From IMG/VR virus record IMGVR_UViG_3300048121_000708, positions 1-30,096 of that record: a stretch of DNA of 30,096 nucleotides. One strand, written 5' to 3'. Position numbers and translations under genes: made by a program. The notes under the pieces were generated by a model. It saw only the letters and a list, made by a program, of their open reading frames with translations. It did not search any database and had not been told where the DNA came from. Numbering within the stretch: position 1 is the stretch's first letter; every line of letters begins with the position of its first letter. Origin of the DNA: a virus. Below, piece after piece: positions 1 through 24,196 of this stretch.

Positions 1-72
1 TTCAGTTCTTCTATTAGATTCTTTGATTGAGTTAGATACTTCGTTCCAACATTGGTTATTAGTTTTATACAT
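1..72 (-). CDS. N-terminal fragment of a leftward gene, cut by window edge
   Basis: Reading the minus strand from an ATG at 72-70 gives 24 uninterrupted codons (MYKTNNQCWNEVSNSIKESN, then RRTE) that run off the left edge. Its upstream flank on that strand is A/T-rich with a CAAA tetranucleotide run (101-117), much like the A-rich leaders of the rightward genes here. Position and orientation suggest a divergent gene facing away from the structural block, as in phages with two opposed transcription units. The fragment is too short to assign a family. Chance openness over 24 codons is quite possible, so the call rests on start position, leader and layout. Confidence 0.45.
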   Translation of the reverse strand, partial: MYKTNNQCWNEVSNSIKESNRRTE

Positions 73-335: not shown

Positions 336-378
336 TGACACTAGCCTGTTAATATATACTAGTAAGGGGCTTATGTCA
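336..378. promoter_or_regulatory. 43-bp dyad element, copy 1
   Basis: The arms are TGACACTAGCC (336-346) and GGCTTATGTCA (368-378), inverted relative to each other at 9 of 11 positions, around a 21-bp AT-rich spacer containing ACTAGT. A near-copy in the opposite orientation lies at 23297-23338; against its reverse complement the arms each match 10/11 and the spacer shares ACTAGTAAGG. Repetition at two transcription-unit boundaries suggests an operator, a promoter for a phage or phage-modified RNA polymerase, or a protein-binding site. In the matching orientation copy 1 would point leftward and copy 2 rightward, if the element is directional at all. Confidence 0.55.
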
Positions 379-422
379 CAGTATTGGTAAATAAACGGTG
401 ATATGTGTAAGTATATATAGAT

Positions 423-671
423 ATGGAAACACAACGATTTATGGGTTCCGGGCAATTAGTCGATAGACTTACGGCTCAGGTTAGAGACAGAGGCTTTGCT
501 ATAGCGTTATTGAAGAAACGTGGCGATATGACAGCTGATGGTAAGCTAACAGCTAAAGGAGAATCTAGAAATCGCATGACAGCAGAGGAAAGAGCATTGG
601 ATAGAGCCGGTGAAACCTCAAGTTCTGCTACATATAACCCAGAAACTAACAGAGTTACAAAAAATAAATAA
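423..671 (+). CDS. Small conserved phage protein, probable virion component
   Basis: An 82-residue soluble, basic protein and the first gene of the rightward block. It contains GSGQLVDRLTAQV near residues 8-20, then ALLKKRGDM, LTAKGESRNRMTAEERALDRAGE and a low-complexity tail ending in KNK. The pattern 'LVxRLxAQ...LLKKRGxM...lTxxGxxRNxMTAEERAxDRA' is one I recall from small proteins in marine phage genomes, usually near structural genes; that recollection was not checked. There is no signal peptide or membrane segment. The helical, charged sequence fits a small head or nucleoid-associated protein. The A/T-rich leader TATATAGATATGG has no Shine-Dalgarno site. Function is unknown. Confidence 0.75.
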   Translation: METQRFMGSGQLVDRLTAQVRDRGFAIALLKKRGDMTADGKLTAKGESRNRMTAEERALDRAGETSSSATYNPETNRVTKNK

Positions 672-5640: not shown

Positions 5641-8541
5641 ATGAAGTTTAAAAATTATATTGAGACTGAGTCTGGTATAAAGGACACAAGTGCCTCTCCG
5701 GGCACCGCTGGTCAATTACTGTCTTCTACAGTTGCCGGCACGTCTTGGATAGATCAAAATACGATTTCTTCTGGAACATCAGAAACTATAGATATACAAG
5801 TAAAAAACATAGCTTCAGCAGACGGTGGTATTGATTTAGTAAAAGGAGATCCAGTTTACATATACGGAAGCGTAGGCGCTTCACCTAGACTTTATATTGA
5901 TTTAGCAGATGCTGATTCTACAGCAACTAACAATTTAGGCGACAGTAAAATGCCATGTGTTGCTTTATTAGACCAAGACTTATCTCCAAACGGAGAAGGA
6001 ACAGCAACTGTTGTTGGTAAGTTAAGAAACTTAATTACAAATCCAATAGATGGAAATGTTCCAAACGAAAATGACACGGTTTACGTAAAATCAGGAGGTG
6101 GACTTACTTTGACAAAACCAGCTGGCTCTACAAACCTCATACAAAACGTAGGTCAAGTAGGTAGGGTAAGTACTTCAGCTGATGGTAACATTGTTGTAGC
6201 TGCTTTGCTTAGAACTAATGATGTACCTAACTTACCTGAAGGAAGGTTATTTGTAGGTACAAGTGCGAATACTTCGCTAGTTTCAGATGTTGTGTATGTA
6301 GACGACACAAACGATAGAGTAGGTATTGGAACAACTAATCCTAATGCTAAATTAGAAGTTGTAGGAACTACTGGTGTTATTATAGATTCGGGTTCTAGCA
6401 ACGCTGCGAAGCTAACTTTAATAGGAGACGGCTCATCTTATGGAGGAGGTGGAACAATAGACATTATAGGTGGGGCTGTCGACTATATGTCTTACAATTT
6501 AAACTTAAAACGCTCGCCAAACACGCTTGAGGCCTTTAACCGTTATTGGCAAGGGAATGTTAAGTGGGAATGGGATGGAAATATAGGTGGAACTGTGGCT
6601 CAGCCATACACATCTTACGAATTTAAAACTCAAGGTTCCTCTCAAATGGTTATCTGGAATAATAACGTTGGGATTGGAACGACTAGTCCTGGTGAGAAGC
6701 TAACTGTAGCTGGGAATATTTCAGTAACATCGCCAAACTCTTTTTTAGTTAAAAACGGGGATAGTAATCATGGGTTAAAATATGGCTATAACACTTTTGC
6801 ATCAAATCCAACAGACGGGCCAATTTTATATGGATACGATGCTGGAGGATTAGGTACAAAACGTAGTTCTGAAAATATAGCATTGTATTGGAATTATTTA
6901 GGAAACGTGGGGATTGGAACGACTAGTCCATCTTCTCAACTATCAAGTTCAAGAGTTTTAGATATATCAAGCACTGGTAATAGTGAAGTTATATTAGATC
7001 ACACTGATGCTGGTGCGACCTCTGATTTAGGTTTGTATTCTTGGAATAGAAATAACGATCATTTAGCTCATGTAAAAGCATCTTGTGACGGCGCAACAGA
7101 TTCAGCATTTATATCGTTCCACGCTCAAGCAACTGGAGGTAGTTTTTCAGGCCCTGGCTCAAATGAAAAAATGAGGATTAAAAGTAATGGCAACGTTGGT
7201 ATTAACACGACTGACCCAAAGACAAAACTCCACGTGGCTAGTGCAAATGGGAGCGACACTCCTACAGCAGGAACTGCGACTGGAGGACTGTTTGTTTCTA
7301 ACACAAATAAAACCTACGGCATCAATATGGGTGTTTCAGGTGGCGGATGGAGTTTTATTCAAGGTCAAAGAGCAGATGGGAATACCACATTATACAACCT
7401 AAACCTTCAACCGCTTGGCGGCAACGTAGGTATTGGAACGACTAGCCCTTCAGAGCTATTGCATTTACGCTCAACTGGTCCAGCTAGACTACTTATAGAA
7501 GCTGATAGCGATAATGTTACCGAAACTGATAATGCCCAAATAATACTAAAGCAAGATGGAGGAGCAGTTGTAGGCAGATTAGGTTATAGAACAAATACAA
7601 ACGATTTAGAGTTGTTAAATGAATATAGTTCTAATATATATTTAGGAACATCAAACTCTATAAGAGCAACATTGCACGCTAATGGCAATTTCGGTATTGG
7701 TAACTCTACTCCTCAAGCTAAACTTCACGTATCAAACGGTCTTTTAAGAACTTGGTCACCTTCCTCTGGAACATCAGCTATATTTGAAAGCACGGTCAGC
7801 AATAGGAATTTTGTTACTTTAACAGCAGCTAATGAAGCTGAGCTTTGGTTTGGTAACGCTTCAACTCAAACTTTAGGTAGGATTAGATACGAGATGGCTG
7901 GTAACAACATGGAGTTTTGGACCAACGCAACTCAAAAAATGGTTATAAATAGCTCTGGCAGCGTTGGAATTGGAACGACTAGTCCTAATAGCAAATTACA
8001 CGTATCTGGTACAGTTAGTCATTCAACCCCATTGGCGAATTTTGATGGTAGTGTAGGTCCTAATGTTTATGGCGCTGTAAGTGTAAGAGTTGATAATATT
8101 AACTATGGAACCGCCATGAAATTCTATCGATCTTTAAGTGCTGATAACAACGCTATAGGTTTTCAGAATGGCGCTTCTACAGTAGGAAGTATAACTATAG
8201 GCACATCAAGCACCGCTTATAATACAACTTCTGATTACAGATTAAAAGAAAACTTAACTGCAATAACAGACGGTATTGATAGGTTAAAACAGCTTAAACC
8301 AAGAAGATTTAACTTTATAGGCAATGCAGATGTTGTAGACGGTTTTATAGCACACGAAGCTAAAGAAGTTATACCAGAGTCTGTTACTGGCGAAAAAGAC
8401 GAGGTATTACCAAACGGATATCCAGTTTATCAAGGAATAGATCAGTCAAAAATTGTGCCTTTGTTAACAGCAGCGCTACAAGAGGCTGTGTCAAAAATAG
8501 AACAATTAGAAACAAGAATACAAAAATTAGAAAATAAATAA
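5641..8541 (+). CDS. Tail fibre with S74 intramolecular chaperone (self-cleaving) domain
   Basis: A 966-residue adhesin. After a fibre N-terminus (GIKDTSASPGTAGQLLSSTV) comes a domain at about 60-190 (IASADGGIDLVKGDPVYIYG...). Then follow at least seven copies of a 'VGIGTTxPxxxL' repeat spread from about residue 228 to 790. The C-terminal ~104 residues are an S74 peptidase/intramolecular chaperone domain starting TSDYRLKENL, with S864 and K869 at the expected catalytic spacing (S..RLK). It ends in a predicted coiled coil (VSKIEQLETRIQKLENK). In characterised S74 proteins this domain drives trimer folding and is then released by cleavage before the Ser. All key motifs are intact. It is the longest fibre and probably a main receptor-binding protein. 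Confidence 0.88.
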   Translation: MKFKNYIETESGIKDTSASPGTAGQLLSSTVAGTSWIDQNTISSGTSETIDIQVKNIASADGGIDLVKGDPVYIYGSVGASPRLYIDLADADSTATNNLGDSKMPCVALLDQDLSPNGEGTATVVGKLRNLITNPIDGNVPNENDTVYVKSGGGLTLTKPAGSTNLIQNVGQVGRVSTSADGNIVVAALLRTNDVPNLPEGRLFVGTSANTSLVSDVVYVDDTNDRVGIGTTNPNAKLEVVGTTGVIIDSGSSNAAKLTLIGDGSSYGGGGTIDIIGGAVDYMSYNLNLKRSPNTLEAFNRYWQGNVKWEWDGNIGGTVAQPYTSYEFKTQGSSQMVIWNNNVGIGTTSPGEKLTVAGNISVTSPNSFLVKNGDSNHGLKYGYNTFASNPTDGPILYGYDAGGLGTKRSSENIALYWNYLGNVGIGTTSPSSQLSSSRVLDISSTGNSEVILDHTDAGATSDLGLYSWNRNNDHLAHVKASCDGATDSAFISFHAQATGGSFSGPGSNEKMRIKSNGNVGINTTDPKTKLHVASANGSDTPTAGTATGGLFVSNTNKTYGINMGVSGGGWSFIQGQRADGNTTLYNLNLQPLGGNVGIGTTSPSELLHLRSTGPARLLIEADSDNVTETDNAQIILKQDGGAVVGRLGYRTNTNDLELLNEYSSNIYLGTSNSIRATLHANGNFGIGNSTPQAKLHVSNGLLRTWSPSSGTSAIFESTVSNRNFVTLTAANEAELWFGNASTQTLGRIRYEMAGNNMEFWTNATQKMVINSSGSVGIGTTSPNSKLHVSGTVSHSTPLANFDGSVGPNVYGAVSVRVDNINYGTAMKFYRSLSADNNAIGFQNGASTVGSITIGTSSTAYNTTSDYRLKENLTAITDGIDRLKQLKPRRFNFIGNADVVDGFIAHEAKEVIPESVTGEKDEVLPNGYPVYQGIDQSKIVPLLTAALQEAVSKIEQLETRIQKLENK
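6673..7985 (+). repeat. Interspersed DNA repeat inside the S74 fibre gene
   Basis: The 17-mer ATTGGAACGACTAGTCC occurs at 6673-6689, 6913-6929 and 7969-7985. A one-base variant (AGCCC ending) lies at 7432-7448, and a weaker copy near 6325-6341. Each encodes the IGTTSP core of the GIGTTSP repeat. Identity at the DNA level, beyond what the protein motif requires, could permit recombination that adds or removes repeat units or swaps fibre segments. Confidence 0.8.
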
Positions 8542-9283: not shown

Positions 9284-10837
9284 ATGGACGCAATTGTCAA
9301 AAACCTTAACTTCGGCGAAGAAGCCAGAGTTAATGTATTTAAAGGAATAGAAAAGCTCACAAAAGCTGTTAGCTCCACTTTAGGAGCTAGCGGCAAATGT
9401 GTGATGCTAGAAGATCATACTGGAAAACCAATTATCACAAAAGATGGTGTTACAGTAGCAGATTCAATAATCTTGCGAGATCCTGTGGAAAACATGGGTG
9501 CTACGCTTTTAAAAGAAGCAGCAAGAAAAACAGTGAGAGAAGCAGGTGATGGCACAACCACAGCCACAGTTTTAGCTCACGCTATATTAACTGAAGCTTA
9601 TAAAGTTTCAGATAAAACAAACTCAAGAGAATTAAAAGAAGGTATTAACAAAGCTGTAGAAAAAGTAATTACTTACTTAGAATCTGCATCAGTACCTGTA
9701 GAAGGTAGTATGATCGATCAAATCGCTACTATATCTACAAATAACGATCCAAAGCTAGGTAAGATTATAGCCGACGCTTTTAGAGCTGTAGATAATACAG
9801 GGATTGTAATGATGGAAACCTCAGCAGAAGGTAAAACAGAAGTCGAAGTTATAGATGGTGTTCAATATGACAAAGGTCTTACGAACTCGCATTTTATAAC
9901 AAACAAGCAAAACAAGTCAGCTGAACTTGAAAACGCATTAGTATTACTAATTGAATCACCTATTGATACAATTAGGCAAATTCAATCAGTGCTAGAGCAT
10001 GTAATAAAAAACAACAAACCTTTGCTTATTATAGGCGATTTAGAACAAGGTGTTTTATCTGCTTTAGCTATGAATAAAAACAAAGGTAATATTAAAGTTA
10101 ATGTAATTAACGCACCAACTTATGGTATTAGCAAAAAAGAAGTTTTAGATGATTTAGCTTTATTAACTGGAGCTACTATTATAAATGAAGACCTAGGCGA
10201 CGATATGGATTTAATCCAAGTAGAGCATTTAGGTAGTTGTTTAAAAAGTGTTACAACACACGAAGAGACTATTCTTCAATTTGGAGAATCTTCACAGGAA
10301 GTTTTAAATATTATAGATGAGATTAAGGAAGAGTTATTAAAAGACAACCCGCCTCACAAAGTAATTAAACTTGAAAAAAGATTAGCAATGCTTGCCGCTA
10401 AAATAGCAATTGTAAAAGTAGGTGCTAACTCTGATATTGAATTAAAAGAAAAAACAGATAGAGTCGAAGATGCTATCTGCGCTACAAAAGCTGCTATTAA
10501 AGAAGGTATCGTTCCTGGAGGTGGTATAGCGCTGTTAAATGCTGCAAAAAGTATAGTACCAAAGTCAGACGGTGAAAAGCTGCTGTTAGAAGCAATTAGA
10601 GCACCTTTTAAGACAATACTAGAAAATGCTGGTATAACAGATGTAGAACTGCCAAAAGCTAAAGGAAGAGGTTTAAATGTGGTTACAGGAAAAATGGTAA
10701 ATATGATTAACTCAGGTATTATTGATCCTCTACTAGTTACCAAGAGCGCTCTTCAAAACGCAGCTTCAGTAGCGACAACTATATTATCAACTGATTGTGT
10801 AATCAATAATTTAAGAATTGATGAAAGCGATAGGTAG
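9284..10837 (+). CDS. groEL: Phage-encoded group I chaperonin GroEL
   Basis: A 517-residue group I chaperonin that would form ATP-driven double-ring cages for protein folding. All domains are present in order. The equatorial start has KNLNFGEEAR and ITKDGVTVAD (D54 equivalent to E. coli D52). The nucleotide loop GDGTTTATVLA (88-98) has D89 equivalent to D87. The apical domain is about 188-370. The equatorial return has VEDAICATKAAIKEGIVPGG (396 equivalent to catalytic D398) and GGGIALLNA. It is about 30 residues shorter than E. coli GroEL because the Gly-Gly-Met tail is missing; it ends LSTDCVINNLRIDESDR. Some apical groove positions are changed (see findings). The ATPase residues look intact, so it is probably active. 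The 3' end overlaps groES by 17 bases. Capsid or fibre proteins are the likely clients. Confidence 0.95.
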   Translation: MDAIVKNLNFGEEARVNVFKGIEKLTKAVSSTLGASGKCVMLEDHTGKPIITKDGVTVADSIILRDPVENMGATLLKEAARKTVREAGDGTTTATVLAHAILTEAYKVSDKTNSRELKEGINKAVEKVITYLESASVPVEGSMIDQIATISTNNDPKLGKIIADAFRAVDNTGIVMMETSAEGKTEVEVIDGVQYDKGLTNSHFITNKQNKSAELENALVLLIESPIDTIRQIQSVLEHVIKNNKPLLIIGDLEQGVLSALAMNKNKGNIKVNVINAPTYGISKKEVLDDLALLTGATIINEDLGDDMDLIQVEHLGSCLKSVTTHEETILQFGESSQEVLNIIDEIKEELLKDNPPHKVIKLEKRLAMLAAKIAIVKVGANSDIELKEKTDRVEDAICATKAAIKEGIVPGGGIALLNAAKSIVPKSDGEKLLLEAIRAPFKTILENAGITDVELPKAKGRGLNVVTGKMVNMINSGIIDPLLVTKSALQNAASVATTILSTDCVINNLRIDESDR

Positions 10838-11081
10838 AAATTTAATAATAGAAAAAATAAAAGAAGGAACCACCGAGACAAAAGGTGGTTTACTTCTTGC
10901 GGAAAAACAACGCGAAGATATACGTTACAATGAAGCTAATGTATTGTCGGTTGGTGAACAAGTTGAAGGATTAAAAGAAGGTGATAAAATCTTTTTTGAT
11001 CGACACGCTGGTCATAAAATAGAAATAGACAAAAAAACATATCACGTTATTAAAGCGCAAGACGTAGTTGTTGTTTTATGA
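10821..11081 (+). CDS. groES: Phage GroES-type co-chaperonin (short form)
   Basis: An 86-residue co-chaperonin lid subunit. I choose ATG 10821 over the in-frame TTG at 10818, because the family starts M(x)(A/I)(I/L)..RVI..., here MKAIGRNLIIEKIKEG. The mobile loop is TTETKGGLLLAEKQRE (about 17-32), with GLLL replacing the E. coli GIVL contact motif. VLSVGEQVEGLKEGDKIFFD and the closing strand KAQDVVVVL follow. Compared with the 97-residue E. coli GroES it lacks most of the roof hairpin. It overlaps the 3' end of groEL and its own stop overlaps the next ATG (ATGA), so the genes should be translationally coupled. Order groEL-groES is the reverse of the usual bacterial operon. Confidence 0.9.
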   Translation: MKAIGRNLIIEKIKEGTTETKGGLLLAEKQREDIRYNEANVLSVGEQVEGLKEGDKIFFDRHAGHKIEIDKKTYHVIKAQDVVVVL

Positions 11082-20590: not shown

Positions 20591-20611
20591 AACTATTTAA
20601 TTATATTATAT
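20591..20611 (+). repeat. 21-nt AT-rich gene leader, copy 1
   Basis: These 21 bases (AACTATTTAATT..., A/T except one C) lie one base before the ATG at 20613. They are identical to 23347-23367, which lies one base before the ATG at 23369. Equal spacing to both starts suggests a functional translation leader or an RNA processing/start site for abundant virion proteins. Confidence 0.6.
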
Positions 20612-20612
20612 T

Positions 20613-21797
20613 ATGTCAGAAGTAAAAACAAATGAACCTGTTAAGCAGGAAGGTGAGTTTAAACTTAAAAAGAAAACTCCAAAAAAACTAACTAAAACAA
20701 GTGACGAGCCTGTTAAAGTTAACATTAAAGAACCTTTAGTTGAACTAGAGCCAGAGGTTAAAAAAGTAGTAATACCTAAAGAAAAAGAAGATGCCATTCA
20801 AATCGGAGAAACAAAGGAAGTATCTGTGGAAGAACCATCCGGAGATAGCATTAAGGTGGGAGAACAAGTACAAGAGCCCGTCGAAGATGTTAAAGAGTTT
20901 ACACCAATCAAAGAAGTTGAAGTAGTCAAGGTAGAAGCTGAGGTTAAAGAAGCGTTAAGAGATGAAAAAGTACTAGGCAAGCAATTACCTGAAAACATCG
21001 AAAAGCTAGTTAGCTTTATGGAGGAGACTGGTGGAACTATTGAAGACTATACAAGACTTAATGCTGATTACTCTAACGTTGATGACAAGACATTATTAAA
21101 AGAGTATTACAAAAAGAATAAACCTTATTTAGATAATTCAGATGTTGAGCTTCTATTAGAAGACTTTGATTATGATGAAGATCTAGACGAGGACAAAGAT
21201 ATACGCAAAAAGAAACTTGCGTTCAAAGAAGAAGTTGCAAAAGCTAAAGGCTTTTTAGAGGAAACAAAGGTTAAGTATTACGATGAAATCAAGTTGAGAT
21301 CAAACGTAAACCCTGATACTCAGAAAGCTACAGACTTTTTCAACCGATACAATAAGCAACAGGAAGTAGCTGAGCAACAACATAAGCAGTTCCAAGAAAG
21401 TACTAAACAGCTTTTTAACGATGATTTCGAAGGTTTCGATATTAAAGTCGGTGACAAGAACTATAAGTACAATATTCAGAACCGTGATAAAGTTGCAGAG
21501 AGCCAATCAAATATTAACAACCTTGTCGGGAAGTTCCTAGACTCTGATGGTAATGTTAGTGACACGAAAGGTTATCACAAAGCTATGTATGCTGCTGACA
21601 ACGTAGATAAAATAGCCTCTCATTTTTATGAGCAAGGAAAAGCTGATGCTGTAAAAGAAGTTATGAACAAATCAAAAAACTTAAGTGATACCAAAGCTAG
21701 GTCCACTCAAGGTGATGTGTTTGTTAACGGTTTTAAGGTTAAGTCTATTTCAGGCGCTGATTCTACAAAACTAAAAATAAAAACAAGAAAATTTTAA
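20613..21797 (+). CDS. Scaffold-like or head-interior protein
   Basis: A 394-residue, highly charged protein between portal and major capsid protein, the usual place for a scaffold. Residues 1-125 are low-complexity Lys/Glu/Val/Pro, probably disordered (EFKLKKKTPKKLTKTSDEPV, then repeated VKVE-type segments). Residues ~128-185 are helical and acidic (ENIEKLVSFMEETGGTIEDY ... KPYLDNSDVELLLEDFDYDE). A coiled region follows to ~285, then a C-terminal part ending FVNGFKVKSISGADSTKLKI plus KTRKF, which may bind capsid subunits. No protease gene or clear cleavage signal is visible. Alternatively it is a head-packaged cargo protein. Family identity is not certain; the position and composition support scaffold best. 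Confidence 0.65.
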   Translation: MSEVKTNEPVKQEGEFKLKKKTPKKLTKTSDEPVKVNIKEPLVELEPEVKKVVIPKEKEDAIQIGETKEVSVEEPSGDSIKVGEQVQEPVEDVKEFTPIKEVEVVKVEAEVKEALRDEKVLGKQLPENIEKLVSFMEETGGTIEDYTRLNADYSNVDDKTLLKEYYKKNKPYLDNSDVELLLEDFDYDEDLDEDKDIRKKKLAFKEEVAKAKGFLEETKVKYYDEIKLRSNVNPDTQKATDFFNRYNKQQEVAEQQHKQFQESTKQLFNDDFEGFDIKVGDKNYKYNIQNRDKVAESQSNINNLVGKFLDSDGNVSDTKGYHKAMYAADNVDKIASHFYEQGKADAVKEVMNKSKNLSDTKARSTQGDVFVNGFKVKSISGADSTKLKIKTRKF

Positions 21798-21813: not shown

Positions 21814-23250
21814 ATGGCGAGTACTTTAACTCCAACATTTGGTAGTATTATCCCGAGTCAAAAGCAGGAATTGCTAAACTCTAACTACCTACAATTTAAC
21901 AGTGACGCTGCTGGCGACACTAACACATTTGCACAACAATACTTACCTGAGATCTACGAACAAGAAGTAGAGCGTTACGGAAACAGAACTTTATCTGGGT
22001 TCTTACGTATGGTTGGTGCTGAAATGCCAATGACTTCTGACCAAGTTATTTGGTCTGAGCAAAACAGATTACACATCTCTTACGATAGCGTAGGAGTAGA
22101 CGCTACTGGATTAGAATTAACAATTCCTGTAAGTGCAACTGTAAAAAATGTTATATCTCCAAGATCTACTATCGTTGTATTAGATTCAACTACTGGATTA
22201 GAAGCTAAATGTTTAGTAACAGACTCTGACACTTCAACAGGTGTTTTAGCTGTACAACCTTACACTATCGCTAATCTTATAGGTTTTACAGATGGTGCTT
22301 TGAAAATATTTGTATACGGTTCTGAATACCAAAAAGGTGGATCTATTTCAGCTGGTGCAGTAGGTGCTAATGCAGGTACTCAATACGTAAGTGTTGATCC
22401 TCAGTTTACACAATACTCTAATTCACCAATTATCCTCAAAAGCCAATACGTAGTATCTGGATCTGATATGGCACAGATTGGATGGGTTGAAGTTGCAACT
22501 GAAGACGGAACATCTGGATACTTATGGTATTTAAAAGCTGAATCTGAAACTCGTTTACGTTTTGAAGATTACTTAGAAACATCTATGATTGAAGGTGAAA
22601 AAGTTGGAGCTGCTTCTGCCATCACTACTGGAAAAGGAACTGAAGGTTTGTTCGCTGCTGTAAGCGCGCGTGGAAACGTAAACGTTGGCTTTACGGCAAC
22701 TGATGGATTAGCTGATTTTGATGCTATCTTGAAAAATTTAGATACTCAAGGAGCAATTGAAGAAAACATGTTGTTCTTACAGAGACAAACATCTCTTGAT
22801 TTTGACGATATGTTAGCTAAGCTTTCTTTAGGTTCTGCCGGTGGTACTGGTTATGGTTTATTTGAAAATTCAGAAGAAATGGCTTTAAACCTAGGATTTA
22901 GCGGATTCCGTAGAGGATCTTACGATTTCTATAAGACTGACTGGAAATACTTAAACGATGCATCTACTCGTGGTGGAGCAGGTGGTAGTAACTCTGTTGA
23001 GGGTGTATTAATTCCTGCTGGAACTTCTACAGTTTACGATCAGATCTTAGGAACTAACATCCGTCGACCATTCTTACACGTACGATACAGAGCTTCACAA
23101 GCTGATGATCGTCGTATGAAGTCTTGGTTAACTGGTTCTGCTGGAGGAGCTTATACATCAACTTTAGATGCTATGGAAGTAAACTTCCTATCTGAAAGAT
23201 GTTTAGTAACTCAAGCTGCTAACAACTTCGTTCTTTTCAAAGGAGCATAG
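21814..23250 (+). CDS. Major capsid protein
   Basis: A 478-residue protein, the likely shell subunit, presumed HK97-fold. It starts MASTLTPTFGSIIPSQKQEL and has an N-terminal arm. 'LPEIYEQEVERYGNRTLSGFLRMVGAEMPMTSDQVIW' is at about 49-85 and a beta-rich insertion at ~100-170. 'ARGNVNVGFTATDGLADFDAILKNLDTQG' lies near 288-316, and an ending with 'EVNFLSERCLVTQAANNFVLFKGA' is typical of capsid proteins in crAss-like and marine Bacteroidetes phages. Codon usage is richer in C-ending codons (TTC, TAC, AAC, CGT) than in neighbours, consistent with high expression. It lies after the scaffold-like gene and before a strong terminator, as expected for an abundant product. Confidence 0.88.
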   Translation: MASTLTPTFGSIIPSQKQELLNSNYLQFNSDAAGDTNTFAQQYLPEIYEQEVERYGNRTLSGFLRMVGAEMPMTSDQVIWSEQNRLHISYDSVGVDATGLELTIPVSATVKNVISPRSTIVVLDSTTGLEAKCLVTDSDTSTGVLAVQPYTIANLIGFTDGALKIFVYGSEYQKGGSISAGAVGANAGTQYVSVDPQFTQYSNSPIILKSQYVVSGSDMAQIGWVEVATEDGTSGYLWYLKAESETRLRFEDYLETSMIEGEKVGAASAITTGKGTEGLFAAVSARGNVNVGFTATDGLADFDAILKNLDTQGAIEENMLFLQRQTSLDFDDMLAKLSLGSAGGTGYGLFENSEEMALNLGFSGFRRGSYDFYKTDWKYLNDASTRGGAGGSNSVEGVLIPAGTSTVYDQILGTNIRRPFLHVRYRASQADDRRMKSWLTGSAGGAYTSTLDAMEVNFLSERCLVTQAANNFVLFKGA

Positions 23251-23268
23251 TAATTTATCAATAATAAT

Positions 23269-23293
23269 CCCTGCCTTCGGGCGGGGGTTTTTT
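23269..23293 (+). terminator. Rho-independent terminator after the capsid gene
   Basis: The stem CCCTGCC (23269-23275) pairs with GGCGGGG (23280-23286), seven pairs with one T-G wobble, closing a TTCG tetraloop. A G and a run of six T residues follow (23288-23293). This is the clearest intrinsic terminator in the window, 19 bases after the capsid stop. It should limit readthrough from the capsid transcript into the downstream head-tail genes. Confidence 0.93.
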
Positions 23294-23296
23294 ATA

Positions 23297-23338
23297 TGAC
23301 ATTAGCCCCTTACTAGTTATATACTATGGCTATTGTCA
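23297..23338. promoter_or_regulatory. 42-bp dyad element, copy 2
   Basis: The arms are TGACATTAGCC (23297-23307) and GGCTATTGTCA (23328-23338), inverted at 10 of 11 positions, around a 20-bp spacer with ACTAGTTATATACTA. It starts just after the capsid terminator and ends about 30 bases before the next gene, an ideal place for a promoter or operator that restarts transcription. It matches the element at 336-378 in reverse orientation. It is not a terminator itself, since no T-run follows on either strand. Confidence 0.6.
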
Positions 23339-23346
23339 CAATTTTA

Positions 23347-23367
23347 AACTATTTAATTATATTATAT
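23347..23367 (+). repeat. 21-nt AT-rich gene leader, copy 2
   Basis: Identical over 21 bases to 20591-20611 and again one base before the ATG (23369). Here it directly follows the dyad element, so it would be the 5' end of any transcript started there. The shared sequence may set efficient translation in a host that does not depend on Shine-Dalgarno pairing. Confidence 0.6.
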
Positions 23368-23368
23368 C

Positions 23369-24196
23369 ATGGCTAAAAAAGCTACAAAAGCAGAAGAAAC
23401 AATTGAGGTTGCACCTCAAGAGGTAGCAGTTGAAACTGCACCAGTTCAAAAAACCACAAAACCAACGTGGGAAATCAAAGATAGAATATACTATCTTAAA
23501 GGTAATAAATCTCCTTTAACTTTAACAATACCTAGTAAGCATACACGTAAGCATGCTTTATTATACTTTGACCCTAAGTTAGGCACACAAAGGGAAATTA
23601 GATATGCAACTAACCAGAGTTCTCCACTTGTTGATGAACAAAAAGGGGAATGCACTATGGGTCATATAACTTTTAAAGATGGGGATTTAAAAGTTCCAAA
23701 AGAACAACAAAACTTACAAAAACTACTTTCACTTTACCACCCTTTAAAAGGTAAAATGTATGAAGAGTTTAGCGCTGTTGAAGAAGCAGAAGATCAATTA
23801 GATATTTTAGACCTTCAAATTGATGCTTTAAACGCAGCTAGATCAATGGACGTAGATCAAGCAGAAGCAATATTAAGAGTTGAACTAGGGTCTAAAGTTA
23901 ACTCAATGAGTTCTAAAGAGCTTAGAAGAGATTTGCTTTTATTCGCTAGACAAAACCCTGTATTATTTATAAACCTAGCTAACGATGAAAATGTTATGCT
24001 ACGTAACTTTGCTATCAGAGCTTCTGAAGCAGGCATAATTAAATTATCTCAAGATCAAAGAACTTTTACATGGGGATCAAACGGTAGAAAATTAATGAAC
24101 GTTCCATTTGATGAAAATCCTTATTCTGCATTTGCGGCTTTCTTAAAAACTGACGAAGGTGTAGAAATCTATAAGTCTATAGATAAAAAACTATAA
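23369..24196 (+). CDS. Conserved structural protein downstream of the capsid gene
   Basis: A 275-residue protein, first gene after the capsid terminator. A disordered N-terminus (KKATKAEETIEVAPQEVAVE) precedes a beta-rich domain, 'WEIKDRIYYLKGNKSPLTLTIPSKHTRKHALLYFDPKLGTQREIRYATNQ' (about 33-85). A helical half follows with 'QNLQKLLSLYHPLKGKMYEEF', 'EDQLDILDLQIDALNAARSM' and 'MSSKELRRDLLLFARQNPVLFINLANDENVMLRNFAIRASEAGI'. I recall similar proteins following the capsid gene in marine Bacteroidetes phages, where they are called structural. It could be a head decoration or head-completion factor. No enzyme motif is evident. A strong hairpin follows the gene. Confidence 0.75.
   Translation: MAKKATKAEETIEVAPQEVAVETAPVQKTTKPTWEIKDRIYYLKGNKSPLTLTIPSKHTRKHALLYFDPKLGTQREIRYATNQSSPLVDEQKGECTMGHITFKDGDLKVPKEQQNLQKLLSLYHPLKGKMYEEFSAVEEAEDQLDILDLQIDALNAARSMDVDQAEAILRVELGSKVNSMSSKELRRDLLLFARQNPVLFINLANDENVMLRNFAIRASEAGIIKLSQDQRTFTWGSNGRKLMNVPFDENPYSAFAAFLKTDEGVEIYKSIDKKL

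Follow-up and report, generated by a model that had tools for sequence, protein, structure and literature searches.

A conserved palindromic element, putatively an operator, recurs at several control points in uncultured marine phages related to flavobacterial podoviruses

Operators of the lambda-repressor type are present as a few palindromes per genome, one of which is located at the regulator's own gene. In phage phi29, the p4 protein binds as a dimer to imperfect inverted repeats with unequal halves, CTTTTT-15 bp-AAAATG, at promoters A2c, A2b, and A3, and switches transcription from early to late (PMC3100819). The experimentally mapped late promoters of phage 7-11, GTAAtg-(16)-aCTA, are read by a phage sigma factor, and the late promoter of phiEco32 is given as tAATGTAtA (PMC8948821). 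Bacteroidetes hosts have an unusual primary-sigma promoter, with the consensus TTTG/TANNTTTG (PMC6847099). Here we describe an inverted-repeat element (dyad) of a marine phage clade, for which phi29 p4 appears to be the closest working parallel, by analogy and with no homology claimed. Our literature searches found neither a regulatory circuit described for this clade nor any mapped transcript ends or binding results from it, and a search with the letters of the motif returned only unrelated papers.

The window, meaning the whole stretch of DNA analysed, was an IMG/VR virus record of 30,096 bp. It is probably a fragment, so copies of the dyad were counted in its relatives instead of in the rest of its own genome. 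The features relevant to the dyad are listed below, with classes A and C denoting two of the three settings in which the element was found.

1..72, minus strand: 5' end (MYKTNNQCWNEVSNSIKESNRRTE...) of a small leftward ORF, cut by the window edge; read by eye, with an N-terminus homologous in G003 (5936-6088)
336..378, minus strand: dyad copy 1 (class C, divergent region), 43 bp, TGACACTAGCC-N21-GGCTTATGTCA
387..417, plus strand: putative promoter of the structural block, bipartite GTAAA-N14-TGTAAGTATATA, predicted; the same motif has a fixed 19-bp start-to-start spacing in relatives
423..671, plus strand: 82-aa ORF that opens the rightward structural/fibre block, with the gene order of G024
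21814..23250, plus strand: capsid-like virion protein (phrog_13704)
about 23269..23293, plus strand: intrinsic-terminator-like hairpin and T-run 3' of the capsid gene; relatives have terminators in the equivalent position
23297..23338, plus strand: dyad copy 2 (class A), 42 bp, TGACATTAGCC-N20-GGCTATTGTCA
23369..24196, plus strand: 275-aa structural-block gene (phrog_34748, no known function) 3' of copy 2

The preliminary description had claimed two near-identical 43-bp dyads at 336-378 and 23297-23338, and both were there, far above chance. With copy 2 reverse-complemented, the arms were identical at 10 of 11 positions on each side and ACTAGTAAGG within the spacer was common to both; taking this sequence as the guide, the two copies were mutually inverted. 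The length of 43 bp held for copy 1, whereas copy 2 was 42 bp. The surroundings were as described, with copy 1 flanked in the divergent region by the leftward ORF (start 72) and the rightward block (start 423), and copy 2 after the capsid terminator and before a new gene. The strong half of copy 1, TGACATAAGCCCCTTACTA, formed its right side and adjoined the putative structural promoter; that of copy 2 formed its left side, and the next gene began 31 bp beyond the dyad. The exact pattern occurred at only these two places in the window (copy 2 was read on both strands) and had no match in 100 shuffles of it. The element profile scored 60.3 and 47.5 against a best score of 3.8 in 30 shuffled windows, a comparison that is not independent because these elements and their relatives had been used to train the profile. 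Elsewhere in the window, at 9284-11081, the phage encodes a GroEL-like chaperonin (phrog_5725, E 1e-134), after which comes an 87-aa ORF that was GroES-like by eye, and collagen-like Gly-X-Y repeats were seen at 1894-2440, in a probable tail-fibre gene. A leader, AACTATTTAATTATATTATATTATG, at 20591-20615 and 23347-23371 preceded two structural genes; it was conserved in relatives whether or not the dyad was present, and is perhaps a translation-initiation leader.

A search of relatives for the pattern revealed at least 119 further matching stretches in viral contigs, in conserved settings; many of these contigs are related, and the counts are not independent events. The motif was a phage-specific palindrome, GTGACAWTAGCCTGTTACTATA..TAGTAACAGGCTAATGTCAC, of 41-45 bp, mostly 42 or 43. 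Its carriers formed a large clade of uncultured marine phages related to flavobacterial podoviruses (Elemovirus, Callevirus). Among named phages, the capsid-like protein of the window was closest to those of Maribacter phage Panino and the uncultured podovirus MW202828 (49% each), with values of 42% against Flavobacterium Elemovirus and 36% against Cellulophaga Callevirus. Related genomes of about 60 kb contained 1-3 copies by the looser pattern and 1-4 by the profile, a prevalence that is biased upward because the element or the capsid had served to find the genomes. A few contigs had two copies identical in sequence, which look like one site at both contig ends. Consensus BLAST against named phages gave chance matches only, and six named relatives had neither the dyad nor a clear 207-aa gene (see below). 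The site was nearly absent from bacterial and archaeal genomes (257 Gb), in which 27 stretches matched. About 8 of the 27 had an AT-rich spacer, all on metagenome-assembled genome contigs, and 3 of these also carried the 207-aa gene; the remaining matches were GC-rich hairpins or chance. A host operator is disfavoured by this near-absence. The earlier suggestion of a shared operator was well supported by the sequence comparison, since many more copies were found in relatives at recurring control points.

The half-site derived from 122 distinct copies was (G)TGACA-WT-AGCC-TNTTACTA, about 18-19 bp in length. TGACA and GC were invariant in the 122 copies, partly because the search pattern demanded them. 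The two halves were unequal: the strong half contained TTACT, the weak half contained TTAAG, TAAT, and similar sequences, and some weak halves had TAGG for TAGC. With its core conserved, the element recurred at several control points of one genome, in three settings. Class A, to which copy 2 of the window belongs, was located between the capsid terminator and the 275-aa gene, at a median of 30 bp before the gene. It was sporadic (7 of about 75 relatives listed), the terminator and gene leader being directly joined elsewhere, and the site is optional; no promoter motif was recognised in this class. A mobile element as the source of class A was set aside, though the presence/absence pattern fits. 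Class B overlapped the start codon of a ~207-aa helix-turn-helix (HTH) protein, or lay no more than about 30 bp from it, in 51 of 51 distinct upstream regions. It was found in all 19 fetched genomes or contig parts bearing the 207-aa gene, including G018, G042, G005, and both parts of G021, all found initially by way of another dyad copy. The G021 contig (129.5 kb; L228, L233) contained a pair of 207-aa genes with dyads, separated by about 62 kb, and represents either two joined related genomes or a duplicated block.

Class C, to which copy 1 belongs, was found where the leftward early block and the rightward structural block diverge, and preceded small genes encoding 76 aa. This 76-aa family (SKRFVVRKSLIGKNQ...YKSYTSSTS) was seen at L092, L152, L161, L175, L209, and L214, and the gene, dyad, and a leader of about 270 nt were sometimes arranged in tandem as a repeated unit. 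The early-side leaders of class C (L110 9527-9650, L328 4788-4900) were non-coding with conserved blocks, GTTAGATATATAGGGGTATAGTGTT-CCCCC ... TTACAAAAACG ... CGGGYCCCCC, for which RNAalifold gave no consensus structure and Rfam no match; a hammerhead match at L110 was sub-threshold (18.7 bits against a cut-off of 52) and was disregarded. The strong half was distal to the gene in 21 of 23 class A and 54 of 58 class C copies (in class C, on the structural side) and proximal to it in 50 of 53 class B copies; two class A copies had reversed polarity. The leftward reading of copy 1 and rightward reading of copy 2 proposed earlier fit this polarity of strong and weak halves, but the polarity sets no single direction of transcription, as class B copies face the opposite way with respect to the gene downstream of them.

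The 207-aa protein had only sub-threshold HTH matches in Pfam. No homologue of the family was found in named phages by tblastn, and a profile search with it yielded a single weak, partial hit (5e-4), to an Elemovirus. The AlphaFold model, built from 46 sequences, had a mean pLDDT of 87.5 and a pTM of 0.65, with a helical C-terminus. Residues 148-205 or so of the model resembled the HTH domains of DtxR/IdeR/TetR (Z up to 6.2 over 54 residues, rmsd 2.5); in the fold search no match spanned the whole fold, the similarity being at the level of the HTH only. Overlaps with mariner transposase DNA-binding domains (rmsd about 9-10 Å) were distrusted. A second HTH may be formed by three modelled helices at 56-110 and would match a half-site of 18-19 bp in two blocks. 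The gene order was ligase, 207-aa, sigma, ERF, DUF3799, and helicase-primase. The sigma gene matched SigA chains (1.5e-05) and Pfam sigma-70 regions 2 and 4 (E ~1e-3, below the curated cut-offs), so that its product is described here as a sigma-70-like factor of the phage. The window ended short of this module, and so did the contig G024, which shares the two dyad settings of the window.

We propose, with moderate confidence, that the dyads would be the operator for a dimeric regulator encoded by the phage, with the ~207-aa HTH protein as the most likely candidate, acting at the structural promoter and at its own gene. The sequences themselves show the element, its positions and conservation, the promoter motif, and the co-occurrence of dyad and 207-aa gene; the binder, the sign of regulation, and the reading of the promoter by the phage sigma factor are parts of the proposal. 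Because the dyad adjoins both the predicted promoter of the virion genes and the start of the 207-aa gene, it is probably the switch by which this protein times phage gene expression. Points against this proposal are that the 76-aa genes also accompany class C sites, that the 207-aa gene is located outside the window, that the polarity of class B is reversed, that no promoter motif was recognised in class A, that G048 has the structural promoter motif and no recognisable dyad, and that recruitment through the element biases prevalence. Alternatively, the operator could be bound by some other protein of the phage (the small 76-aa proteins, for instance) or by a host factor. We consider this unlikely, though not negligible: the 76-aa genes recur with class C sites, some in tandem with them, and the 207-aa protein is a putative binder, but the near-absence of the site from bacterial genomes is unlike that of a host operator, nothing in Pfam or PHROG matches the 76-aa family, and the most constant location of the dyad is the 207-aa start codon.

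On the strong-half (structural) side of class C, a second motif of the clade, GTAAA-N14-TGTAAKTATATA, was conserved. In 25 clade records (1.43 Mb) there were 27 copies, whereas shuffled sequence gave 2.6 on average; in 25 of the 27 copies, GTAA and TGT began exactly 19 bp apart. In the window, 8 bp separate the dyad from the motif, whose first base is thus 9 bp from the dyad's last, and the ATG follows at 423. A box match was present in 48 flanks, and in 28 of these the motif started 5-8 bp, and the -10-like box 24-27 bp, past the dyad. Helical phasing of the dyad-promoter distance was rejected, as 24-27 bp dominated and the longer spacings (34-57) were too few and too related for a 10.5-bp period. 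Being located upstream of structural genes and differing from the TTTG/TANNTTTG consensus of the host, the motif has the characters of a late promoter, its activity being predicted. It recurred at a second location, between the sigma-like and ERF genes, where the dyad was missing, and four named relatives had no copy of it. G048 contained the structural promoter motif and no recognisable dyad, so the dyad is not universal at the structural promoter. A different promoter-like module, TTACAAACTAAATACGA-N~10-GGATAATATAAATGTAA, also unlike the host consensus, was found before many small leftward early genes of the clade (about 119-160 of the window, minus strand, and the class C surroundings in L199 and L207).

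The suggestion that the dyad itself is a phage-specific promoter was not borne out, because the promoter-like motif is a separate sequence (387-417), oriented rightward, towards the structural genes, and not leftward as had been proposed for copy 1. Were the dyad a promoter running from its strong to its weak half, leftward in copy 1 and rightward in copy 2, this would agree with the consistent polarity within each class, with the TATA-like runs in the AT-rich spacer, and with the position of copy 2 after a terminator. This reading is nevertheless improbable, since both ends are conserved palindromically, class B copies would be directed against the 207-aa gene, two copies of class A have the opposite polarity, a distinct promoter-like motif of fixed spacing is situated outside the dyad, and host primary promoters have another form (PMC6847099). 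Similarly, a low probability is given to a replication origin, in which the 207-aa protein would be an initiator binding its own gene and the divergent intergenic region. The location of its gene among those for ligase, ERF recombinase, and helicase-primase and the multiple sites per genome are in keeping with such a role, but the fixed adjacency to the promoter motif, the optional copy between structural genes, and the lack of an iteron array at the sites are not.

Complementarity of the arms at variable positions did not exceed the expectation from independent columns and was far below it at positions 6 (0.03 against 0.37), 13 (0.10 against 0.24), and 17 (0.04 against 0.34), and compensatory base-pair changes between the arms were not detected. 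The uncompensated arms speak for an asymmetric DNA site of the dimer type, a DNA-protein site conserved as DNA, and against a hairpin in RNA or a cruciform. A hairpin in the transcript, serving as a terminator, processing site, or translational switch, would explain the dyad symmetry, the T runs that often follow class C copies, and the AUG inside class B copies, but is highly implausible given this low complementarity, the uncompensated TAGG halves, the lack of an Rfam match, and the displacement of some class B dyads from the AUG.

If the dyad is the operator of the 207-aa protein, this protein would bind the dyads as a dimer. At class B, the bound protein would limit its own expression, which would be probable autorepression. 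At class C, it would sit just upstream of GTAAA-N14-TGTAAKTATATA and most likely activate the structural genes via a holoenzyme with the phage sigma factor, which we infer to recognise this motif. If transcription starts 6-8 bp past the -10-like box, the centre of the dyad would be about 65 bp upstream of the start, a typical place for activators that touch RNA polymerase. Copy 2, of class A, would be an optional extra site that may tune transcription past the capsid terminator. Tentatively, the clade may contain an undescribed regulatory module of abundant uncultured flavophages, with a new HTH family (possibly two HTH units per 18-19-bp half-site), a phage sigma factor, and its own promoter class, in which one operator is reused at the regulator gene and at the structural promoter and is gained or lost after the capsid terminator. 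The operator, candidate regulator, candidate phage sigma factor, and promoter motif are concrete enough for testing in vitro, and the motifs could serve as promoter markers in many uncultured marine phage genomes.

Compared with the known systems, the dyads resemble lambda-type operators in being few palindromes per genome, one of them at the candidate regulator gene, but the sites of the clade are mostly single with long half-sites, and, in contrast to lambda, no lysogeny genes were recognised in the annotated clade regions. The clade shares with 7-11 and phiEco32 a phage sigma-like gene and a non-host promoter class upstream of structural genes, and with 7-11 the GTAA upstream box. It differs from both in host phylum and downstream box, recognition by the sigma factor being presumptive here, and in the palindromic operator adjoining its promoter, none being described for theirs in the available part of PMC8948821. 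Like the p4 sites of phi29, the dyads are imperfect inverted repeats with unequal halves, with a putative phage-encoded regulator; they are located in the early/late divergent control region, where a role in the late switch is presumed, and just upstream of a putative late promoter (in 28 of 48 flanks). Unlike the p4 sites, they have half-sites of about 18-19 bp and one is also located at the start codon of the candidate regulator itself, and whereas phi29 uses the host sigma factor, the clade has a phage sigma-like gene adjacent to that of the regulator.
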